A DNA stretch of 64,000 nt from Enterobacter sp. kpr-6 (GTDB lineage Bacteria; Pseudomonadota; Gammaproteobacteria; Enterobacterales; Enterobacteriaceae): assembly GCF_900116015.1 (NCBI RefSeq), contig NZ_FOYH01000011.1, positions 62,001 through 126,000 on the forward strand. The letters are read 5' to 3'. This document shows, piece by piece, positions 45,857-54,446 of the stretch. A program made the translations under genes and the position numbers. A model generated the notes under the pieces. The model was not told where the DNA came from. It saw nothing but the letters and a program-made list of their open reading frames with translations, and made no database searches. The first letter of the stretch is position 1. Each line of letters starts with the position of its first letter.

Positions 45857-48370
45857 TTACCCCGGTTGATTAAGTTCAAGTTCGTGCCGCAACAGTTCAG
45901 CCACGGCTTCCGTGGAAGCCGCGTTAACCAGTGCGCTACGGAATTCGTCGTGCATGATGCGCCGCGCCAGCCGCGAAAAAATCCGCATATGCTGATCGCC
46001 TGCGGCGTGTTTATTGAGCGTCAGCATGATGATGAACTGCGCCTCGTCGTCACCCCAGCGTACCGGCGCAGGCAGTCGCGCCACGCTGATGGTGGATTGC
46101 TCAATATGCTCAGATTTGCTGTGCGGAATGGCGAAGCTAAAGCCCAGCCCGGTGGAGAACACCTCTTCGCGCGCCCAGAGATCGGCCTCCAGCTTGCGCG
46201 GATAACGGCAGCGCCCGGCCAGCAGCAGATTATCGGTCATGCCTTTCATGACCTCTTCTTTACTGCGCCAGTCGTTATCAAGGGAAATGCAGTCGCCGGT
46301 GATAAGCGGCGCGTCCTGCTGCGCCATACGGAATTGCGCCAGCAGGTGTTCGACTTCAAGAGACGTGCGGCAACGCATCGCCTCGTTGAGCAAACGACGG
46401 CAATCGCGGCTGTCCAGTTGCGCCAGCCGTGCTTTGGTCGCCGGAATGGACGGCGCGCTCATGCTAATTTCGTCCAGCCCCAGCCCGACCAGCAGCGGCA
46501 GCACCGAGCCTTTTGCCCCCAGTTCACCGCACAGGCCGATCCATTTGCCCTGTCGGTGCACCGCCTGCACAGCGAAATCGAGCGCGCGTAAAAACGCCGG
46601 ATTCAGGCTGTTGTAATGGCGGGTGACTTTGGCGTTATCGCGATCGACCGCCAGCAGGTATTGCGTCAGGTCATTACTGCCGATGCTAAAGAAATCAATC
46701 TCTTCGCAGCACTGGTCGATGATAAACATCACCGACGGCACCTCCAGCATGATGCCCAGCGGGATTTTTTCATCAAAGGCGATCTGCTCTTCGCGCAGCG
46801 CCTGTTTTGCGGCGGCGAGTTTTTCTTTCACCCACAGGATCTCTTCCAGCGAGGAGATCATCGGGATCATGATTTTCAGTTTGCCATGGGCGGAAGCGCG
46901 CAGGATCGCCCGTAACTGGGTAGTAAACAGCGCCGCGTACTCGGCGTAAATGCGCACCGCGCGATAGCCGAGAAACGGATTGTTTTCTGCCGGAATAGCG
47001 AGATAATCCACGGGCTTATCGCCGCCGATGTCCATGGTGCGCACAATAATGCTGCGCCCGCTGGCCGCCTGTAGCGCGTCACAAAAAATGTTATACAGCT
47101 CGTCTTCAGCGGGCGCGCTGGCGCGATCCATATAGAGCATTTCAGTGCGAAACAGCCCGATACCTTCTGCACCATTGCCGAATGCGGCGTCGGCTTCCAC
47201 GGCGTGTGCAATGTTGGCGGCAACTTCCATGCGTACATCGTCGGCGGTGCGCGCTTCCTGCGTGAACCACTGGCGCTGTTGCTGGTGTAACTGCTCTGCA
47301 ACCCAGGCTTCCTGCTGGTAATAACGCCGCACGGCGTCATCCGGGGTGACGACCAGCACGCCCGTATTGCCATCAATGCAGGCGGGCTGATTGAGCCAGG
47401 CGTCAAGCGCCTGAATATCCACGCCCACCAGCGTCGGAATGCCAAACGAGCGGGCCAGGATCACCGTGTGCGAGGTCGTTCCACCGCTTGCCAGCAGCAG
47501 GCCTTTTAACTGCGTTTTGTCCAGTTCCAGAAACTGGCTGGGCGTGAGTTCTTCACTGAGGCAAATGGTTGGCTGAGTCAGTTCGCCGGGCGTGGGGAAA
47601 CGTTGCTCGCCATAAATGTGCTGTAAAAGCTGGAAGCAGACATCCCGCACGTCCAGCGCGCGTTCCTGTAAATAGTCGCTCGCCGAGCGGGAGAACTGTT
47701 CGCAAAAGTGGGCGGCGCTTTGCACGATGGCCTGGGCGCAACTCAGGCCTTCGCTGACGCCATGCAGTAAATGCTGGCGCAGCGTGGTATCGCTGGCGAG
47801 CGAGCGATGGGCTTCCAGAATGGCGCGCATCGTGCTGTCGCTTTCCAGTAAACGCAGCGCAATACTTTTGCCAAGCCGCGCCAGGCCTGCATCAAGCGTG
47901 GCCTGCTCCTCTTCCACACTGCGCGCGGCGGGCAGGTCATCAAGCTGTTGTAAATCCAGCCCGCGCAGGCGCAGCAGTATCCCGCAAGCACTGCCGCCGC
48001 AAACAGGCTGCGCGCGGAAAAAGGTGGGGTTGAGATGGGCCAGCGAAAGGGGAAGGGGATCGCACTCTGCGGTTACGGCGGCGGGCAACGGCGCGTCGCA
48101 ATGAGGAAACTCGTTCTGTAGCCACTGGCTTAATCGCTGGTGGGCTATGTGCTCATCGTGCCCGCTGATCAGTAACTGGCAGGCGTCACCCATCAGGGTG
48201 TCCGTGCCGATTAATGCCAGGGCGCTTTTGGCGTTCCCCTTGCTGCCCGTGCGCAAATTAAGCCACTCAATGTCTGACGTGAACGTATTGCACAGCGTTT
48301 CGACATGACTCGCCGGGCGCGCATGGACACCGTTTGGCAGTTCGCAGACAAATTCCACAACCAAAGACAT
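45857..48370 (-). CDS. ptsA: Multiphosphoryl transfer protein PtsA (HPr - enzyme I - EIIA)
   Basis: Fused PTS protein, 837 aa from ATG 48370 (E. coli 833). It is a complete phosphate relay in one chain: HPr-like domain at residues 1-90 with His16 in NGVHARPAS, enzyme I domain with His301 in GGTTSHTVILARSF and the PEP-binding C-terminal barrel (LRALDFAVQAVHRQGKWIGLCGELGAKGS region), and a fructose-type EIIA domain with His750 in AIPHSKSEH. It would energise the FrwB/FrwC/FrwD permease independently of the general PTS. The 26-residue N-terminal extension of the longest reading is not conserved. It is divergent from frwC. Confidence 0.96.
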   Translation of the reverse strand: MSLVVEFVCELPNGVHARPASHVETLCNTFTSDIEWLNLRTGSKGNAKSALALIGTDTLMGDACQLLISGHDEHIAHQRLSQWLQNEFPHCDAPLPAAVTAECDPLPLSLAHLNPTFFRAQPVCGGSACGILLRLRGLDLQQLDDLPAARSVEEEQATLDAGLARLGKSIALRLLESDSTMRAILEAHRSLASDTTLRQHLLHGVSEGLSCAQAIVQSAAHFCEQFSRSASDYLQERALDVRDVCFQLLQHIYGEQRFPTPGELTQPTICLSEELTPSQFLELDKTQLKGLLLASGGTTSHTVILARSFGIPTLVGVDIQALDAWLNQPACIDGNTGVLVVTPDDAVRRYYQQEAWVAEQLHQQQRQWFTQEARTADDVRMEVAANIAHAVEADAAFGNGAEGIGLFRTEMLYMDRASAPAEDELYNIFCDALQAASGRSIIVRTMDIGGDKPVDYLAIPAENNPFLGYRAVRIYAEYAALFTTQLRAILRASAHGKLKIMIPMISSLEEILWVKEKLAAAKQALREEQIAFDEKIPLGIMLEVPSVMFIIDQCCEEIDFFSIGSNDLTQYLLAVDRDNAKVTRHYNSLNPAFLRALDFAVQAVHRQGKWIGLCGELGAKGSVLPLLVGLGLDEISMSAPSIPATKARLAQLDSRDCRRLLNEAMRCRTSLEVEHLLAQFRMAQQDAPLITGDCISLDNDWRSKEEVMKGMTDNLLLAGRCRYPRKLEADLWAREEVFSTGLGFSFAIPHSKSEHIEQSTISVARLPAPVRWGDDEAQFIIMLTLNKHAAGDQHMRIFSRLARRIMHDEFRSALVNAASTEAVAELLRHELELNQPG

Positions 48371-48672
48371 CGCTCTTCTCCTGAATCCGCGTTGAGGACT
48401 CAGCATAAAAGCCCCGGCCGTAAAACCGCTATCTGACAAATCTGCCAAAAACTGGATAAATGTAATGTAAGTCCAGAAGTGGGATATTACTCACAGGTTA
48501 CATTTCTTTGCGAGAAAGCTCGCAAAATGAAGTTATGAGGCGGATCGCATTTTCTGACTGATATTACAAAAATCCAGTAAATGGACTTTTTGTCCACTGT
48601 CTGCGCCTCCTGCGATTGCCTATTGTTGCCACACCAATCTTGTGGAAAAGGGCAAATGCCTTTGGAGCGCTT
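48371..48672. promoter_or_regulatory. Divergent ptsA / frwC control region with inverted repeats
   Basis: 302 bp, gene-free, AT-richer than the flanks. Three structures stand out: AAATGTAA at 48458-48465 facing TTACATTT at 48498-48505 (an inverted pair 40 bp apart); a perfect palindrome TTTGCGAG-AAAG-CTCGCAAA at 48507-48526; and TGGAC-TTTTT-GTCCA at 48582-48596 inside a looser CAGT/ACTG pair. These are candidate operators for the local AraC-type protein YijO or a global regulator; no consensus site for CRP, FNR or Cra was convincing. Confidence 0.55.
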
Positions 48673-49749
48673 ATGAAAGAGTTGATGCATATCCTGAAGA
48701 ACGCGCGTCAGCATTTGATGACTGGCGTATCGCACATGATCCCGTTTGTGGTGGCGGGCGGCATTCTGCTGGCGGTTTCCGTCATGCTCTACGGCAAGGG
48801 TGCGGTGCCGGATACCGCGCACGATCCCAACCTGAAAAAGCTGTTTGATATCGGCGTCGCCGGGCTGACGTTGATGGTGCCCTTTCTCGCCGCCTACATT
48901 GGCTACTCCATCGCTGAACGGGCAGCGCTGGCACCCTGTGCGATCGGTGCCTGGGTGGGCAACAGCTTTGGCGCGGGGTTCTTCGGGGCGATCATCGCCG
49001 GGCTGATTGGCGGCATCGTGGTGCACTACCTCAAAAAGCTGCCGGTGCCGAAAGTCCTGCGCTCGGTCATGCCGATCTTCATCATTCCCATTATTGGCAC
49101 CTTTATTACCGCGGGCATCATGATGTGGGGCCTGGGCGAACCGGTCGGGGCGCTGACGGCGAGCCTGACCGGATGGCTACAGGGAATGCAGCAGGGCAGC
49201 ATTATCGTTCTGGCGATCATCATGGGGCTGATGCTGGCCTTCGATATGGGCGGCCCGGTCAACAAAGTGGCTTACGCCTTCATGCTGATTTGCGTGGCGC
49301 AGGGCGTCTACAGCGTGGTGGCGATTGCCGCCGTCGGCATCTGCGTCCCGCCGCTGGGATTAGGCCTGGCAACGCTTCTGAATCGTAAAAATTTCTCCGC
49401 GGAAGAACGCGAAGCCGGGAAAGCGGCGATGGTGATGGGCTGCGTGGGCGTCACCGAAGGGGCGATTCCGTTTGCCGCCGCCGACCCGCTGCGCGTTATT
49501 CCCTCCATCATGCTGGGTTCAGCCTGCGGCGCAGTCACCGCGGCGGTCCTGGGCGCACAGTGTTACGCCGGTTGGGGCGGTTTGATTGTGCTGCCGGTAG
49601 TTGAAGGCAAAGGCGGTTATCTGGCGGCGGTGGCGGTCGGGGCGGTGGTGACGGCGCTGTGCGTCAACCTGCTTAAAAGCCTGGCGCGAAAGAAACCGCA
49701 GGCGAGCGAAAAAGAAGACGATCTGGATTTGGATTTCGAAATTAACTAA
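48673..49749 (+). CDS. frwC: PTS fructose-like EIIC component FrwC
   Basis: Membrane channel subunit of a fructose-family PTS, 358 aa from ATG 48673 with GGAG upstream. It has about ten hydrophobic segments, with the family substrate region GCVGVTEGAIPFAAADPLRVIP near residue 255 and an acidic tail DDLDLDFEIN. It lacks fused EIIA/EIIB domains, so it depends on FrwB or FrwD for phosphate. First gene of the frwC-frwB-pflD-pflC-frwD operon. Confidence 0.95.
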   Translation: MKELMHILKNARQHLMTGVSHMIPFVVAGGILLAVSVMLYGKGAVPDTAHDPNLKKLFDIGVAGLTLMVPFLAAYIGYSIAERAALAPCAIGAWVGNSFGAGFFGAIIAGLIGGIVVHYLKKLPVPKVLRSVMPIFIIPIIGTFITAGIMMWGLGEPVGALTASLTGWLQGMQQGSIIVLAIIMGLMLAFDMGGPVNKVAYAFMLICVAQGVYSVVAIAAVGICVPPLGLGLATLLNRKNFSAEEREAGKAAMVMGCVGVTEGAIPFAAADPLRVIPSIMLGSACGAVTAAVLGAQCYAGWGGLIVLPVVEGKGGYLAAVAVGAVVTALCVNLLKSLARKKPQASEKEDDLDLDFEIN

Positions 49750-50132: not shown

Positions 50133-52430
50133 ATGACAAATCGTATCCAGCGCCTGAAAGCGGCACTCTTTTGCCAGCCACGCGAAATTTCTCTGGAAAG
50201 AGCGCTGCTCTACACCGGGAGCTACCGCCAGACTGAAGGCGAACCGGTTTGTCTTCGCCGTGCTAAAGCGACAGCCTGGGTACTGGATAACGTGGCGATT
50301 GCCATCCGTGACGATGAACTGATTGCCGGTAACCGCACGGTTAAACCGCGCGCGGGTATCGTCTCGCCAGAAATGGATCCGTACTGGCTGTTAAACGAAC
50401 TGGATCAGTTCCCGACCCGCCCGCAGGATCGCTTTGCCATCAGTGACGATGACAAACGCATTTACCGCGAACAGCTTTATCCGTACTGGGCGAATCGCTC
50501 GATGAAAGATTTCATCAACGGTCAGATGACCGATGCGGTGAAAGAAGCCGTCGGGACGCAAATCTTTAGCATCAACCAGACGGATAAAGGGCAGGGGCAT
50601 ATCATTATTGATTATCCGCATCTGCTGGAGAATGGCCTGGGTGAACTGATAACGCAGATGCAGGTGCACTGCCAGCGCGAGCCGGAGAATGCTTTTTACG
50701 AGGCCGCGCTTTTACTGCTGCTGGCCTCGCAGCGCCATATTTTGCGCTATGCCGTACTCGCCGATGAAATGGCCGCGTGCTGCGATGATGTTGTGCGGCG
50801 TGAAGAGTTACAGCGCATGGCCGACATTGCGCGGCACAATGCGACCCATCGCCCGCAGACGTTCTGGCAGGCCTGTCAGCTTTTCTGGTACATGAACATC
50901 ATTCTGCAATACGAATCCAACGCCAGTTCGCTGTCGCTGGGACGTTTTGATCAGTACATGCTGCCGTTTTATCAGGCTTCACTTTCGCAGGGGGAAGAGC
51001 CGGGCTTTTTGCGCGAGCTTCTGGCATCGCTGTGGATCAAATGCAATGACGTGGTGCTGCTGCGTTCAACCAGCAGCGCGCGCTATTTCGCGGGTTTCCC
51101 GACCGGGTACACCGCCCTGCTCGGTGGCCTGACGCCGACCGGACGCAGCGCGGTCAACACTCTGTCATTCCTGTGCCTTGATGCCTATCAGGATGTGCAA
51201 CTGCCGCAGCCCAACCTGGGCGTACGCGTCAACGCGCTTATCGACCGCCCGTTTTTATTAAAGACCGCTGAAACCATCCGCCTTGGCACCGGCATTCCGC
51301 AAATTTTCAATGATGAAGTGGTGGTGCCTGCCTTTCTCAACCGGGGCGTGTCGCTGGAAGATGCGCGCGATTACGCGGTGGTCGGCTGCGTGGAGCTGTC
51401 GATCCCTGGCAGAACCTACGGGCTGCATGACATCGCCATGTTTAACCTGCTGAAAGTCATGGAGATCACGCTCTATGAAAACGAACATCAACCTGACCTG
51501 AACTGGGACGGATTGCTGAATAAAATCCGCGAAAAAATCAGCCATTACATTCGTCTGATGGTCGAGGGCAGCAACATCTGCGATATCGGCCACCGCGACT
51601 GGGCTCCGGTGCCGCTGCTGTCATCGTTTATCCGTGATTGCCTGCAAAACGGTAAAGATATTACCGACGGCGGCGCGCGCTATAACTTCTCCGGCGTGCA
51701 GGGGATCGGTATCGCCAACCTGAGCGACTCCCTGCATGCGTTAAAAGGCATGGTCTTTGACCAGCAACGACTCAGTTTCCCTGACCTGCTGGCACAACTG
51801 CGGGCTAACTTCGCCACGCCTGCGGGCGCGAAAATTCGCGCACGTCTGATCCACCGCTTCGAAAAGTACGGTAACGATATCGATGAGGTGGATGACATCA
51901 GCGCGGATCTGCTGCGTTATTACTGCAAAGAGGTGGAGAAGTATGCCAATCCGCGCGGCGGTGTTTTTACCCCCGGTTCGTACACCGTCTCTGCCCATGT
52001 GCCGTTGGGCGCGGTGGTTGGCGCAACGCCGGATGGCAGGCTGGCGGGCGAACAACTGGCAGATGGCGGCCTGTCGCCGATGCTCGGCCAGGACGTTAAC
52101 GGCCCGACGGCGGTACTTAAATCGGTCAGCAAACTGGATAACACCCTGCTGTCGAACGGCACGCTGCTGAACGTGAAGTTTACCCCCACAACGCTTGAAG
52201 GCGACGGCGGCCTGCATAAACTCGCGGATTTCCTGCGCGCCTTTACGCAGCTTAAATTGCAGCATATTCAGTTCAACGTGGTGAACGGTGACACCCTGCG
52301 TGAAGCCCAGGCCCGACCGCAGGACTTTGCCGGGCTGGTGGTTCGCGTCGCCGGTTACAGCGCGTTCTTCGTGGAGCTGTCGAAGGAGATCCAGGATGAC
52401 ATCATTCGCCGGACCGCGCACCAGCTCTGA
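50133..52430 (+). CDS. pflD: Glycyl radical enzyme PflD
   Basis: Oxygen-sensitive radical enzyme, 765 aa as in E. coli. The glycyl radical site is Gly741 in VRVAGYSAFFVEL; the active-site Cys is Cys419 in VVGCVELSIPG. The single Cys in a GCVE context places it with dehydratases and C-O lyases rather than with pyruvate formate-lyase, which uses adjacent cysteines, despite its name. In E. coli PflD has recently been reported to open 1,5-anhydromannitol 6-phosphate to 1-deoxyfructose 6-phosphate (recalled, not checked). It lies between frwB and its activase pflC, which fits a PTS-delivered phosphosugar substrate. Confidence 0.95.
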   Translation: MTNRIQRLKAALFCQPREISLERALLYTGSYRQTEGEPVCLRRAKATAWVLDNVAIAIRDDELIAGNRTVKPRAGIVSPEMDPYWLLNELDQFPTRPQDRFAISDDDKRIYREQLYPYWANRSMKDFINGQMTDAVKEAVGTQIFSINQTDKGQGHIIIDYPHLLENGLGELITQMQVHCQREPENAFYEAALLLLLASQRHILRYAVLADEMAACCDDVVRREELQRMADIARHNATHRPQTFWQACQLFWYMNIILQYESNASSLSLGRFDQYMLPFYQASLSQGEEPGFLRELLASLWIKCNDVVLLRSTSSARYFAGFPTGYTALLGGLTPTGRSAVNTLSFLCLDAYQDVQLPQPNLGVRVNALIDRPFLLKTAETIRLGTGIPQIFNDEVVVPAFLNRGVSLEDARDYAVVGCVELSIPGRTYGLHDIAMFNLLKVMEITLYENEHQPDLNWDGLLNKIREKISHYIRLMVEGSNICDIGHRDWAPVPLLSSFIRDCLQNGKDITDGGARYNFSGVQGIGIANLSDSLHALKGMVFDQQRLSFPDLLAQLRANFATPAGAKIRARLIHRFEKYGNDIDEVDDISADLLRYYCKEVEKYANPRGGVFTPGSYTVSAHVPLGAVVGATPDGRLAGEQLADGGLSPMLGQDVNGPTAVLKSVSKLDNTLLSNGTLLNVKFTPTTLEGDGGLHKLADFLRAFTQLKLQHIQFNVVNGDTLREAQARPQDFAGLVVRVAGYSAFFVELSKEIQDDIIRRTAHQL

Positions 52431-53251: not shown

Positions 53252-53608
53252 ATGTCGGCGACAAAAGGGCGTTATCTGGTGGCGGTCACCGCCTGTGTCA
53301 GTGGCGTGGCGCATACCTATATGGCGGCTGAGCGGCTGGAGAAGCTCTGCTTACAGGAAAAGTGGCACATCAAAATCGAAACCCAGGGCGCACTGGGCAC
53401 AGAAAATCTGTTGAGCGACGATGACATCCGGCGGGCGGATATGGTGCTGTTGATTACGGATATCGAACTGGCAGGTGCGGAACGTTTTGCGCAGACCCGC
53501 ATTGTGCAGTCCGGCATTCATGGTTTTTTGCGCGATCCGGAAAAGGTCATGTGTGCAGTGCGTAAGCTGCTGTGTGCGCCGCAGCAGACGCATCTTATTC
53601 TTCAGTAG
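53252..53608 (+). CDS. frwD: PTS fructose-like EIIB component FrwD
   Basis: Second EIIB-Fru protein of the cluster, 118 aa, with phospho-Cys in AVTACVSGVAHTYMAAERL near residue 14. It starts one base after the pflC stop with GGGAGG upstream. Its last 14 bases overlap the end of yijO on the other strand. Why two EIIB proteins serve one EIIC is unclear; either the channel takes two donors or FrwD is a regulatory decoy. Confidence 0.94.
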   Translation: MSATKGRYLVAVTACVSGVAHTYMAAERLEKLCLQEKWHIKIETQGALGTENLLSDDDIRRADMVLLITDIELAGAERFAQTRIVQSGIHGFLRDPEKVMCAVRKLLCAPQQTHLILQ

Positions 53609-54446
53609 CGGTTTTTTCCGTCAACTGGCTGTGATACTGACGGCGATACTCCGACGGGGTGCGCTCGGTATTTTTGCGGAACAGGCGGCAAAAATAGTTA
53701 CTGTCCACGAACCCACAGGCGTGGGCCACTTCTTTGACTTTCAGATCGTACCCTTTTAGCAGCGTCCGGGCGTGTTCAAGCCGGATGTGATTCAGGTATT
53801 CGTTAAAGCCCGTCGCCCCGGTTTTCGCAAACAGGTGCGAAAGATAATTAGGCGAAATATAAAACGCCTGGGCGACCGATTCGCGGGTAAGCGGCGAGGC
53901 GTAGTGTTCATCGATATAACGACGAACGGCTTCGAACAGCGCCTGGCTCCGGGATGCGGTCTGGATCTGGCTGCCTAATAAATCGCTGCAATGGCTGAGC
54001 AGGCTCATCACGATCAGGCGGGCGGTGAGTTGCTCCTGCGGCTGCATCTGCATTTCACCGAGCGTTTGCAGTAAAAACGACCCAATGCGCGGCCCGCGCC
54101 GGGCGACGTGCTCTTTCGCCAGATTATGCAGGCTGTTTCCGTCCCAGCGCTGCACGCTGAATCCCAGTTGCTGCTTGCCGAAAAGAATGCTTAACGTGGT
54201 GGCGGGCTGTTGCCATTGCGGGGCGTTCCAGCCGCCAGCGGGAACAAACAGGGCGTCGCGCTCATTAAGAACGCCGTCGATTGCGGCGTCAGTCACCTGG
54301 CCTTCAAGCACGATTTCGAGGCGCGGAAAATCGACCTGAAACGCCAGATCGGGCACCGGTCCCGTCATGCTGGCAAACCAGACGCGCTGAAGTGGTGAAG
54401 GGCCAGTGAGTAATCTGGCAAGAAGATGGCTGACGTCGTGATGCAT
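53595..54446 (-). CDS. yijO: AraC-family regulator YijO
   Basis: Transcription factor of 283 aa, the E. coli length. The C-terminal AraC double helix-turn-helix covers about residues 170-275 (LTRESVAQAFYISPNYLSHL and VKEVAHACGFVDSNYFCRLF). The N-terminal part is a cupin-like effector domain without recognisable ligand motif. It closes the frw/pfl cluster, pointing toward it, which suggests it is the local regulator; the target sites may be the inverted repeats at 48458-48526. Not experimentally assigned, as far as I know. Confidence 0.93.
   Translation of the reverse strand: MHHDVSHLLARLLTGPSPLQRVWFASMTGPVPDLAFQVDFPRLEIVLEGQVTDAAIDGVLNERDALFVPAGGWNAPQWQQPATTLSILFGKQQLGFSVQRWDGNSLHNLAKEHVARRGPRIGSFLLQTLGEMQMQPQEQLTARLIVMSLLSHCSDLLGSQIQTASRSQALFEAVRRYIDEHYASPLTRESVAQAFYISPNYLSHLFAKTGATGFNEYLNHIRLEHARTLLKGYDLKVKEVAHACGFVDSNYFCRLFRKNTERTPSEYRRQYHSQLTEKTATEE

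Follow-up and report, generated by a model that had tools for sequence, protein, structure and literature searches.

The 302 bp gap between the divergent genes ptsA and frwC of Enterobacter sp. kpr-6 is probably a mirror-image pair of araBAD-type promoters, through which the AraC-family protein YijO and CRP would control both of the operons that leave it, as judged from comparison of DNA sequences. The gap lies in a 64,000 nucleotide stretch of the genome (the window), in a gene cluster with the enterobacterial order gldA-fsaB-ptsA <> frwC-frwB-pflD-pflC-frwD; yijO, a local AraC-family regulator gene (HTH_18 and HTH_AraC domains), is convergent at the cluster's end. According to the available text of PMC6643234, fsaB, gldA and ptsA form one operon whose role and regulation are "not completely clear", and PflD reportedly cleaves 1,5-anhydromannitol-6-phosphate (a passage of PMC12441222, citing Ma et al.). 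Window coordinates of the genes most concerned are:

45857..48370, minus strand: ptsA, HPr-EI-EIIA multidomain PTS protein (start at 48370)
48673..49749, plus strand: frwC, PTS EIIC (NCBIfam PRK10478)
50133..52430, plus strand: pflD, glycyl radical enzyme (NCBIfam PRK09983)
53595..54446, minus strand: yijO, AraC/XylS-family regulator and proposed binder of the boxes described below (Pfam HTH_18 and HTH_AraC)

Two proposed promoter modules between ptsA and frwC

The 420 bp that precede frwC were aligned for 46 loci (called F loci here): 44 loci besides the window and an E. coli record. The blocks conserved among them (about 48426-48466, about 48480-48495, 48534-48556, 48562-48605 and 48613-48634) contain two modules, each of which has, from the centre of the gap outward, a CRP-like site, a 15 bp box 1 (TTACAWWWRTCCAGT), a weak box 2 and a -10-like hexamer:

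48402..48407, minus strand: putative -10 (TATGCT) of the ptsA-fsaB-gldA promoter, a conserved hexamer at offset 45
48431..48445, minus strand: box 2 of the ptsA side (GCAGATTTGTCAGAT), a weak second half-site by the box 1 matrix
48451..48465, minus strand: box 1 of the ptsA side (TTACATTTATCCAGT), predicted main YijO half-site, strongly conserved in the 46 F loci
48480..48495, plus strand: CRP site 1 (TGGGATATTACTCACA), matching the consensus at 9 of 10 bases, at offset -43 relative to box 1
48534..48549, minus strand: CRP site 2 (minus-strand sequence TGCGATCCGCCTCATA), at offset -43 relative to box 1 of the frwC side
48564..48578, plus strand: box 1 of the frwC side (TTACAAAAATCCAGT), mirror copy, from its conservation and exact genome match
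48584..48598, plus strand: box 2 of the frwC side (GACTTTTTGTCCACT), weak by the box 1 matrix; overlaps the TGGAC..GTCCA repeat (below)
48621..48626, plus strand: putative -10 (TATTGT) of the frwCB-pflDC-frwD promoter, a conserved hexamer at offset 44

Comparison of sequences establishes the boxes, the CRP-like sites, the fixed offsets between them, the mirror symmetry of the modules and their association with yijO. The two copies of box 1 are inverted relative to each other, and in the window 125 bp separate their reference bases. With box 1 omitted, comparison of the base profiles of the two sides gives the highest similarity at shift 0 (0.141; the next best shift gives 0.059, and the mean of 61 shifts is 0.009).

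For CRP scoring the 46 F loci were anchored once by the left box 1 and once by the right, and compared with the 10 bases of the consensus. The best match starts at offset -43 on both sides, with a mean of 8.89 of 10 on the ptsA side versus 7.76 on the frwC side. Site 1 has 9 of the 10 bases in 41 loci and 8 in 5; site 2 is weaker, with 8 in 37 loci, 7 in 7 and 6 in 2, and its exact letters are present in 14 of the 46, including the E. coli locus (L033). A survey of loci other than the own-genome loci L081-L129, made without any CRP criterion, gave 115 distinct strict ptsA/fsaB-side sites, which are interrelated; all 115 have 7-10 of the 10 bases at -43, where the median over 40 offsets is 2.43. 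The region has, as araBAD-type promoters do, a CRP site at a fixed distance upstream of its proposed activator boxes. Both sites are of the TGTGA-N6-TCACA type by sequence, and binding is listed in published data: the portion seen of a CRP genomic SELEX predicted-target list includes ptsA<>frwC (PMC3105977), and an ETEC CRP ChIP-seq table, likewise seen in part, gives TGCGATCCGCCTCATA for ptsA/frwC (PMC4287617), the same letters as the frwC-side site of the window. An FNR site suggested by eye for the AGGCGGATCGCATTTT block was rejected once the block had been recognised as the mirror CRP-like site, whose letters are those that the published CRP entry gives. A second CRP-like match at 48432-48447, over the ptsA-side box 2, averages 6.98 of 10 in the 46 loci and may be due to chance.

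The -10-like hexamers are also held at constant positions. On the ptsA side TATCCT, TATGCT or TATTCT is found at offset 45 in 39 of the 46 F loci, and this offset gives the best -10 match of the ptsA-side module in 13 of 16 reduced (R) loci (described below); on the frwC side TATTGT is at offset 44 in 41 of 46. No good -35 was seen by eye in either module. An extended -10 within the ptsA-side box 2 (TGG-CAGATT, by eye) was considered and set aside, the TATNCT farther out being kept at one offset. Box 2 was placed with the matrix of box 1, which gives +24.0 to the ptsA-side box 1 itself. Among 50 downstream offsets, +20 is the best on each side, with means of -14.0 on the ptsA side (versus -45.5 for the offsets, s.d. 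9.6) and -14.5 on the frwC side (versus -44.0, s.d. 9.6); since these scores are negative, box 2 is only a weak relative of box 1.

If the two hexamers are the -10s, the CRP sites are at about -92.5 (ptsA side) and -91.5 (frwC side) and the box pair is at about -53. From this arrangement we infer start sites, binding, dimerisation and activation by YijO, an inducer and looping, as follows. Each of the divergent promoters would have a CRP site upstream at about -92 and two direct YijO half-sites 20 bp apart, a strong box 1 and a weak box 2, with the pair centred near -53. The inducer is plausibly a 1,5-anhydrohexitol or its 6-phosphate, a proposal that follows from the reported role of PflD. 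With inducer, YijO would fill both boxes of each side and, together with cAMP-CRP, activate ptsA-fsaB-gldA and frwCB-pflDC-frwD at the same time; without it, a YijO dimer may bridge the two copies of box 1, about 12 helical turns apart, and keep both promoters off. Such looping is a reasonable, unproven extension of the YijO/CRP model.

Reduced loci and the spacing of the boxes

Loci with the arrangement yijO-[element]-fsaB-gldA, without adjoining ptsA, frwC and pflD, are called R loci here; they are 16 of the first 62 loci. All 16 have an intact ptsA-side module, with CRP scores of 7-10 of 10, which now lies upstream of fsaB. On the distal side 14 of them retain box 1; in all 14 the CRP site of that side is lost (1-5 of 10), and its box 2 and -10 are mostly decayed. 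A wider set, again leaving out the own-genome loci L081-L129, has 40 distinct R loci, 37 of them with a distal box (0-2 mismatches) and all 37 with a distal CRP score of 1-5 of 10; on the ptsA/fsaB side the boxes of this set were accepted only at a CRP score of at least 7, which makes the CRP tally of that side circular. These patterns found no distal box in three of the 40 R loci (L003, L004 and L073), nor in L222. L003 and L004 (genomes G001 and G002) belong to the window's genus, and are reduced loci without frw and pfl genes as well as without the distal box; they represent two of the four genomes of the genus sampled.

Among the best 80 of 153 yijO relatives, a set that overlaps the wider one, there are 46 F loci, 28 R loci and 6 truncated or mixed ones. 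Pattern matching located the two boxes together in 44, 26 and 3 loci of these classes, respectively, and neither box in 2, 1 and 3; the R locus of Silvania hatchlandensis has only the proximal box. The R loci of this set include those of Klebsiella, Raoultella, Trabulsiella, Salmonella arizonae and diarizonae, and some Citrobacter and Kosakonia.

The distance between the boxes of the R loci takes few values. In the wider set it is 93 bp (2 loci), 104 (1), 114-117 (20) or 123-128 (14), with nothing between these rungs, and in the best-80 set it is 92-93, 113-117 or 123-126. The spacings fall on a ladder of about 10.5 bp (92/93, 104, 113-117, 123-128), as a loop would need. A Rayleigh test on 12 distinct spacings gave p of about 0.004 at 10.5 bp (0.003-0.017 for periods of 10.0-11.0), the related genomes not being independent, and one on four spacing shifts that were grouped post hoc gave 0.008; the spacings 92 and 113 (best-80 set) emerged after these tests. 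Two-promoter loci include spacings that are out of phase: 119 in one and 140 in one of 70 F loci, and 213 in L075, a locus with a YijO-like gene (below).

We tentatively suggest that one YijO dimer bridges the inverted copies of box 1 over about 9-12 turns and silences both operons, and that in lineages that have lost one operon the box of the dead promoter has survived purely as a loop operator, its spacing altered only by whole turns; we consider this possible rather than probable. If true, a promoter has been converted to a remote repression site, and the conversion is visible as a natural series. A serious alternative, to which we would give somewhat less than an even chance, is that the gap simply holds two independent back-to-back YijO/CRP promoters that form no loop, their symmetry being the trace of an old duplication or inversion of one module. 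Each module does look complete, and the spacings of 119, 140 and 213 show that two-promoter loci tolerate boxes that are out of phase. On the other hand, this reading does not sit well with the retention of the distal box 1 in 37 of 40 R loci in spite of a lost CRP site and a mostly decayed box 2 and -10, or with R-locus spacings found only on rungs about 10.5 bp apart.

It is rather unlikely that the distal box of the R loci, instead of being a loop operator, is a relic in slow decay or serves transcription to the right. A relic would fit L036 and L039, where enough of the surrounding promoter can still be recognised for the loss to look recent, L043 and L046, which retain a box-2-like TTTTATC, and the three of 40 R loci that have no distal box. 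In most other rows, however, the surroundings have diverged and the box is kept across several genera, and a rightward transcript would run into yijO, the next gene to the right, which is not read in that direction.

The boxes and YijO

The 4.48-Mb genome has two exact matches to TTACAWWWRTCCAGT, and these are the two ptsA/frwC boxes. Allowing up to two mismatches gives 55 matches in the whole genome, and the reversed control pattern gives 47, so that degenerate matches do not exceed chance. YijO is present in 62 of 295 genomes of the family, and matches to the intergenic DNA in 59 of the 295, all of them among the 62 (the overlap of the two lists was judged by eye). The remaining three yijO genomes have a box with one mismatch (G191, locus L071, and G031, locus L073) or two (G195). 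Such co-occurrence by itself proves little because yijO is in the same locus and linked to the region. Other two-mismatch matches in the family resemble chance; they are L201 (without cluster genes, CRP 3 of 10), G273, G253 (contig C24) and G267 (contig C6).

YijO-like genes in other places bear on this point. We collected 15 loci, in paralogous places or outside the family, whose proteins are 34-57% identical to YijO over the aligned part. Nine of them (L064, L066, L068, L074, L075, L077, L078, L079 and L080) have a box with at most one mismatch, three (L063, L065 and L076) have two-mismatch sites only, and in three (L067, L069 and L070) there is none even when two mismatches are allowed. Several have inverted box pairs, with spacings of 125 (L074), 129 (L066), 119 (L079), 124 (L080) and 213 (L075). 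A CRP match of 8-9 of 10 stands at -43 from 15 of the 19 anchored boxes at these loci (six two-mismatch sites are unanchored); the exceptions are one box of L075 with 6, the pflD boxes of L064 and L068 with 5, and one of the two extra boxes of L080 with 2. L064 (6013-10937) and L068 (6007-10948) are second pflD-pflC clusters with a YijO paralogue (56-57% identity) and no frwC match; in both the box by the paralogue gene has a CRP match of 9 of 10 at -43 and the box upstream of pflD one of only 5. In L155 (genome G651) a mirror-image double module lies directly between fsaB and pflD, with a spacing of 128 and CRP matches of 9 and 7 of 10, and neither ptsA nor frwC is found within the 3 kb examined; the double module seems to travel with the genes of the pathway.

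The stretches of YijO that correspond to its recognition helices, SPNYLSHLF and DSNYFCRLF, are largely kept in the 15 YijO-like proteins, with substitutions in the most distant ones. They are not conserved in 16 of 17 control rows, which are AraC-family proteins of the window's own genome (the 17 of 27 other AraC-family loci with a usable alignment; L101 and L105 are the same protein). The exception is a YpdC-like protein (L107) that adjoins a fryA-like gene and has recognition helices similar to those of YijO; the 17-kb region around the YpdC-like protein has no YijO-type box with a CRP site. Locus L129, on contig C10 of the same genome, is what we take to be a fry-like PTS cluster, with a fryA-type EI and a YpdC-like AraC regulator; here too the recognition helices are like those of YijO, and a YijO-type box with CRP is absent from the vicinity.

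The structure predicted for YijO from 34 aligned sequences (mean pLDDT 84.3, pTM 0.55) has a strand-rich N-terminal domain, a long helix and an AraC-type DNA-binding domain. Its best Foldseek matches are to the AraC family (CsvR, Rns and ToxT, and the AraC and MarA domains), of which only the match of the DNA-binding domain is firm since the full-length superpositions are poor (rmsd about 20). In the available text of the reports that mention it, YijO is listed among the uncharacterised E. coli regulators (PMC9308461, PMC6055005) and placed in an attenuator cluster ascribed to BIMEs (PMC2965389). The literature searched, in so far as its text was available and with most subscription journals outside its coverage, contained no description of a YijO binding site.

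It is improbable that the boxes belong to another regulator such as PhoB and that YijO acts elsewhere. A weak PhoB ChIP-seq entry at frwA/frwC, TGTAATGTAACCGTCAAT, appears in the available part of PMC10294691; this E. coli entry corresponds to window positions 48452 to about 48478 and runs into the edge of the ptsA-side box 1. However, the flank that would complete the Pho box is poorly conserved, an exact box that occurs twice in the genome is unlike the site of a global regulator, and the box goes with yijO and YijO-like genes.

Inverted repeats and known systems

A preliminary description of the window had drawn attention to three inverted repeats, all of which are in the ptsA/frwC gap exactly as it gave them, within 142 bp:

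48458-48465 and 48498-48505: inverted pair AAATGTAA / TTACATTT, 40 bp start to start
48507-48526, no strand: 20-bp palindrome TTTGCGAG-AAAG-CTCGCAAA, 8-bp arms and 4-nt loop; unconserved, outside the proposed system
48582-48596: TGGAC-TTTTT-GTCCA repeat

Of 2000 dinucleotide shuffles 4.0% have at least two 8-bp inverted pairs per 142 bp, as do 7.2% of the 142-bp windows across the same 64 kb, so the repeats are statistically marginal; the 64 kb contain 71 perfect hairpins with 8-bp arms and loops of 3-10. Conservation in relatives had been set beforehand as a check on the repeats, and they do not have it: the exact letters of each are present in 1 of the 46 frwC loci, namely the window itself. 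Some perfect 8-bp-arm hairpin occurs in the region in 12 of the 46, mostly a different one, and the looser TGG[AC]C-N5-[AG]TCCA in 19. In the 46-locus alignment the palindrome has 0.20 bits per base, with 31% of its bases matching the window, the lowest among the stretches measured. The TTACATTT arm has 0.26 bits per base versus 1.85 for the AAATGTAA arm, which is contained in the ptsA-side box 1, and the TGGAC..GTCCA block has 1.46 (with the block shifted one base to the right). By this measure one arm and one block are part of a conserved feature and their symmetry is not, and we regard the symmetric repeats as incidental to this one genome. A role of the palindrome as an RNA hairpin was discarded, given its presence in 1 of 46 loci.

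The half-sites of AraC-family proteins are, by the usual description, direct rather than inverted. That the palindromes are the YijO operators is very improbable indeed: they are present as described and in the right region, but among the 46 loci only the window has the exact letters of any of them, no other stretch measured is as poorly conserved as the palindrome, the frequency of such repeats is near chance and the usual AraC-family half-sites are direct. What survives of the proposal is the place, which is probably the control region of YijO; the conserved boxes lie elsewhere than the palindromes. Similarly, the statement that none of the repeats fits CRP well is fair, yet two CRP-like sites lie inside the same 142 bp. 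Looping between an outer pair of sites, also suggested there, is a live possibility.

The closest likenesses to the proposed arrangement are among AraC-family systems. The rhaBAD promoter (RhaS, CRP) resembles the arrangement proposed for ptsA/frwC in having AraC-family half-sites and an upstream CRP site, and differs from it in half-site spacing and regulator. The araBAD promoter (AraC I1-I2, CRP, O2) has direct half-sites next to the promoter, as proposed here, and the positions are similar: in the available text of PMC7408454 CAP is at -93.5 and the AraC half-sites are centred at -52.5, where the values from the putative starts here are about -92 and about -53. Both have an AraC-family regulator, and the lone distal box of the R loci may correspond to the distal single half-site of araBAD. 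Unlike araBAD, ptsA/frwC has two mirrored modules, each with its own CRP site, and the distal box is inverted and only 92-128 bp away, whereas O2 of araBAD is 211 bp upstream. The xylA/xylF region (XylR, CRP), compared by the site lists in the part of PMC7567609 available, likewise has divergent sugar operons with two AraC-family half-sites per promoter and CRP; there one CRP site is listed for xylA and a low-evidence one for xylF, whereas here each promoter has one at the same offset.

Control by an AraC-family protein with CRP is of a known kind, and ptsA/frwC is already in published CRP lists. The operator model would add exact predicted bases for the orphan regulator YijO, would tie YijO to the PflD cluster, and fits the published CRP entries at ptsA/frwC. 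The spacings of the R loci may in turn serve as a natural series for the study of AraC-type looping.
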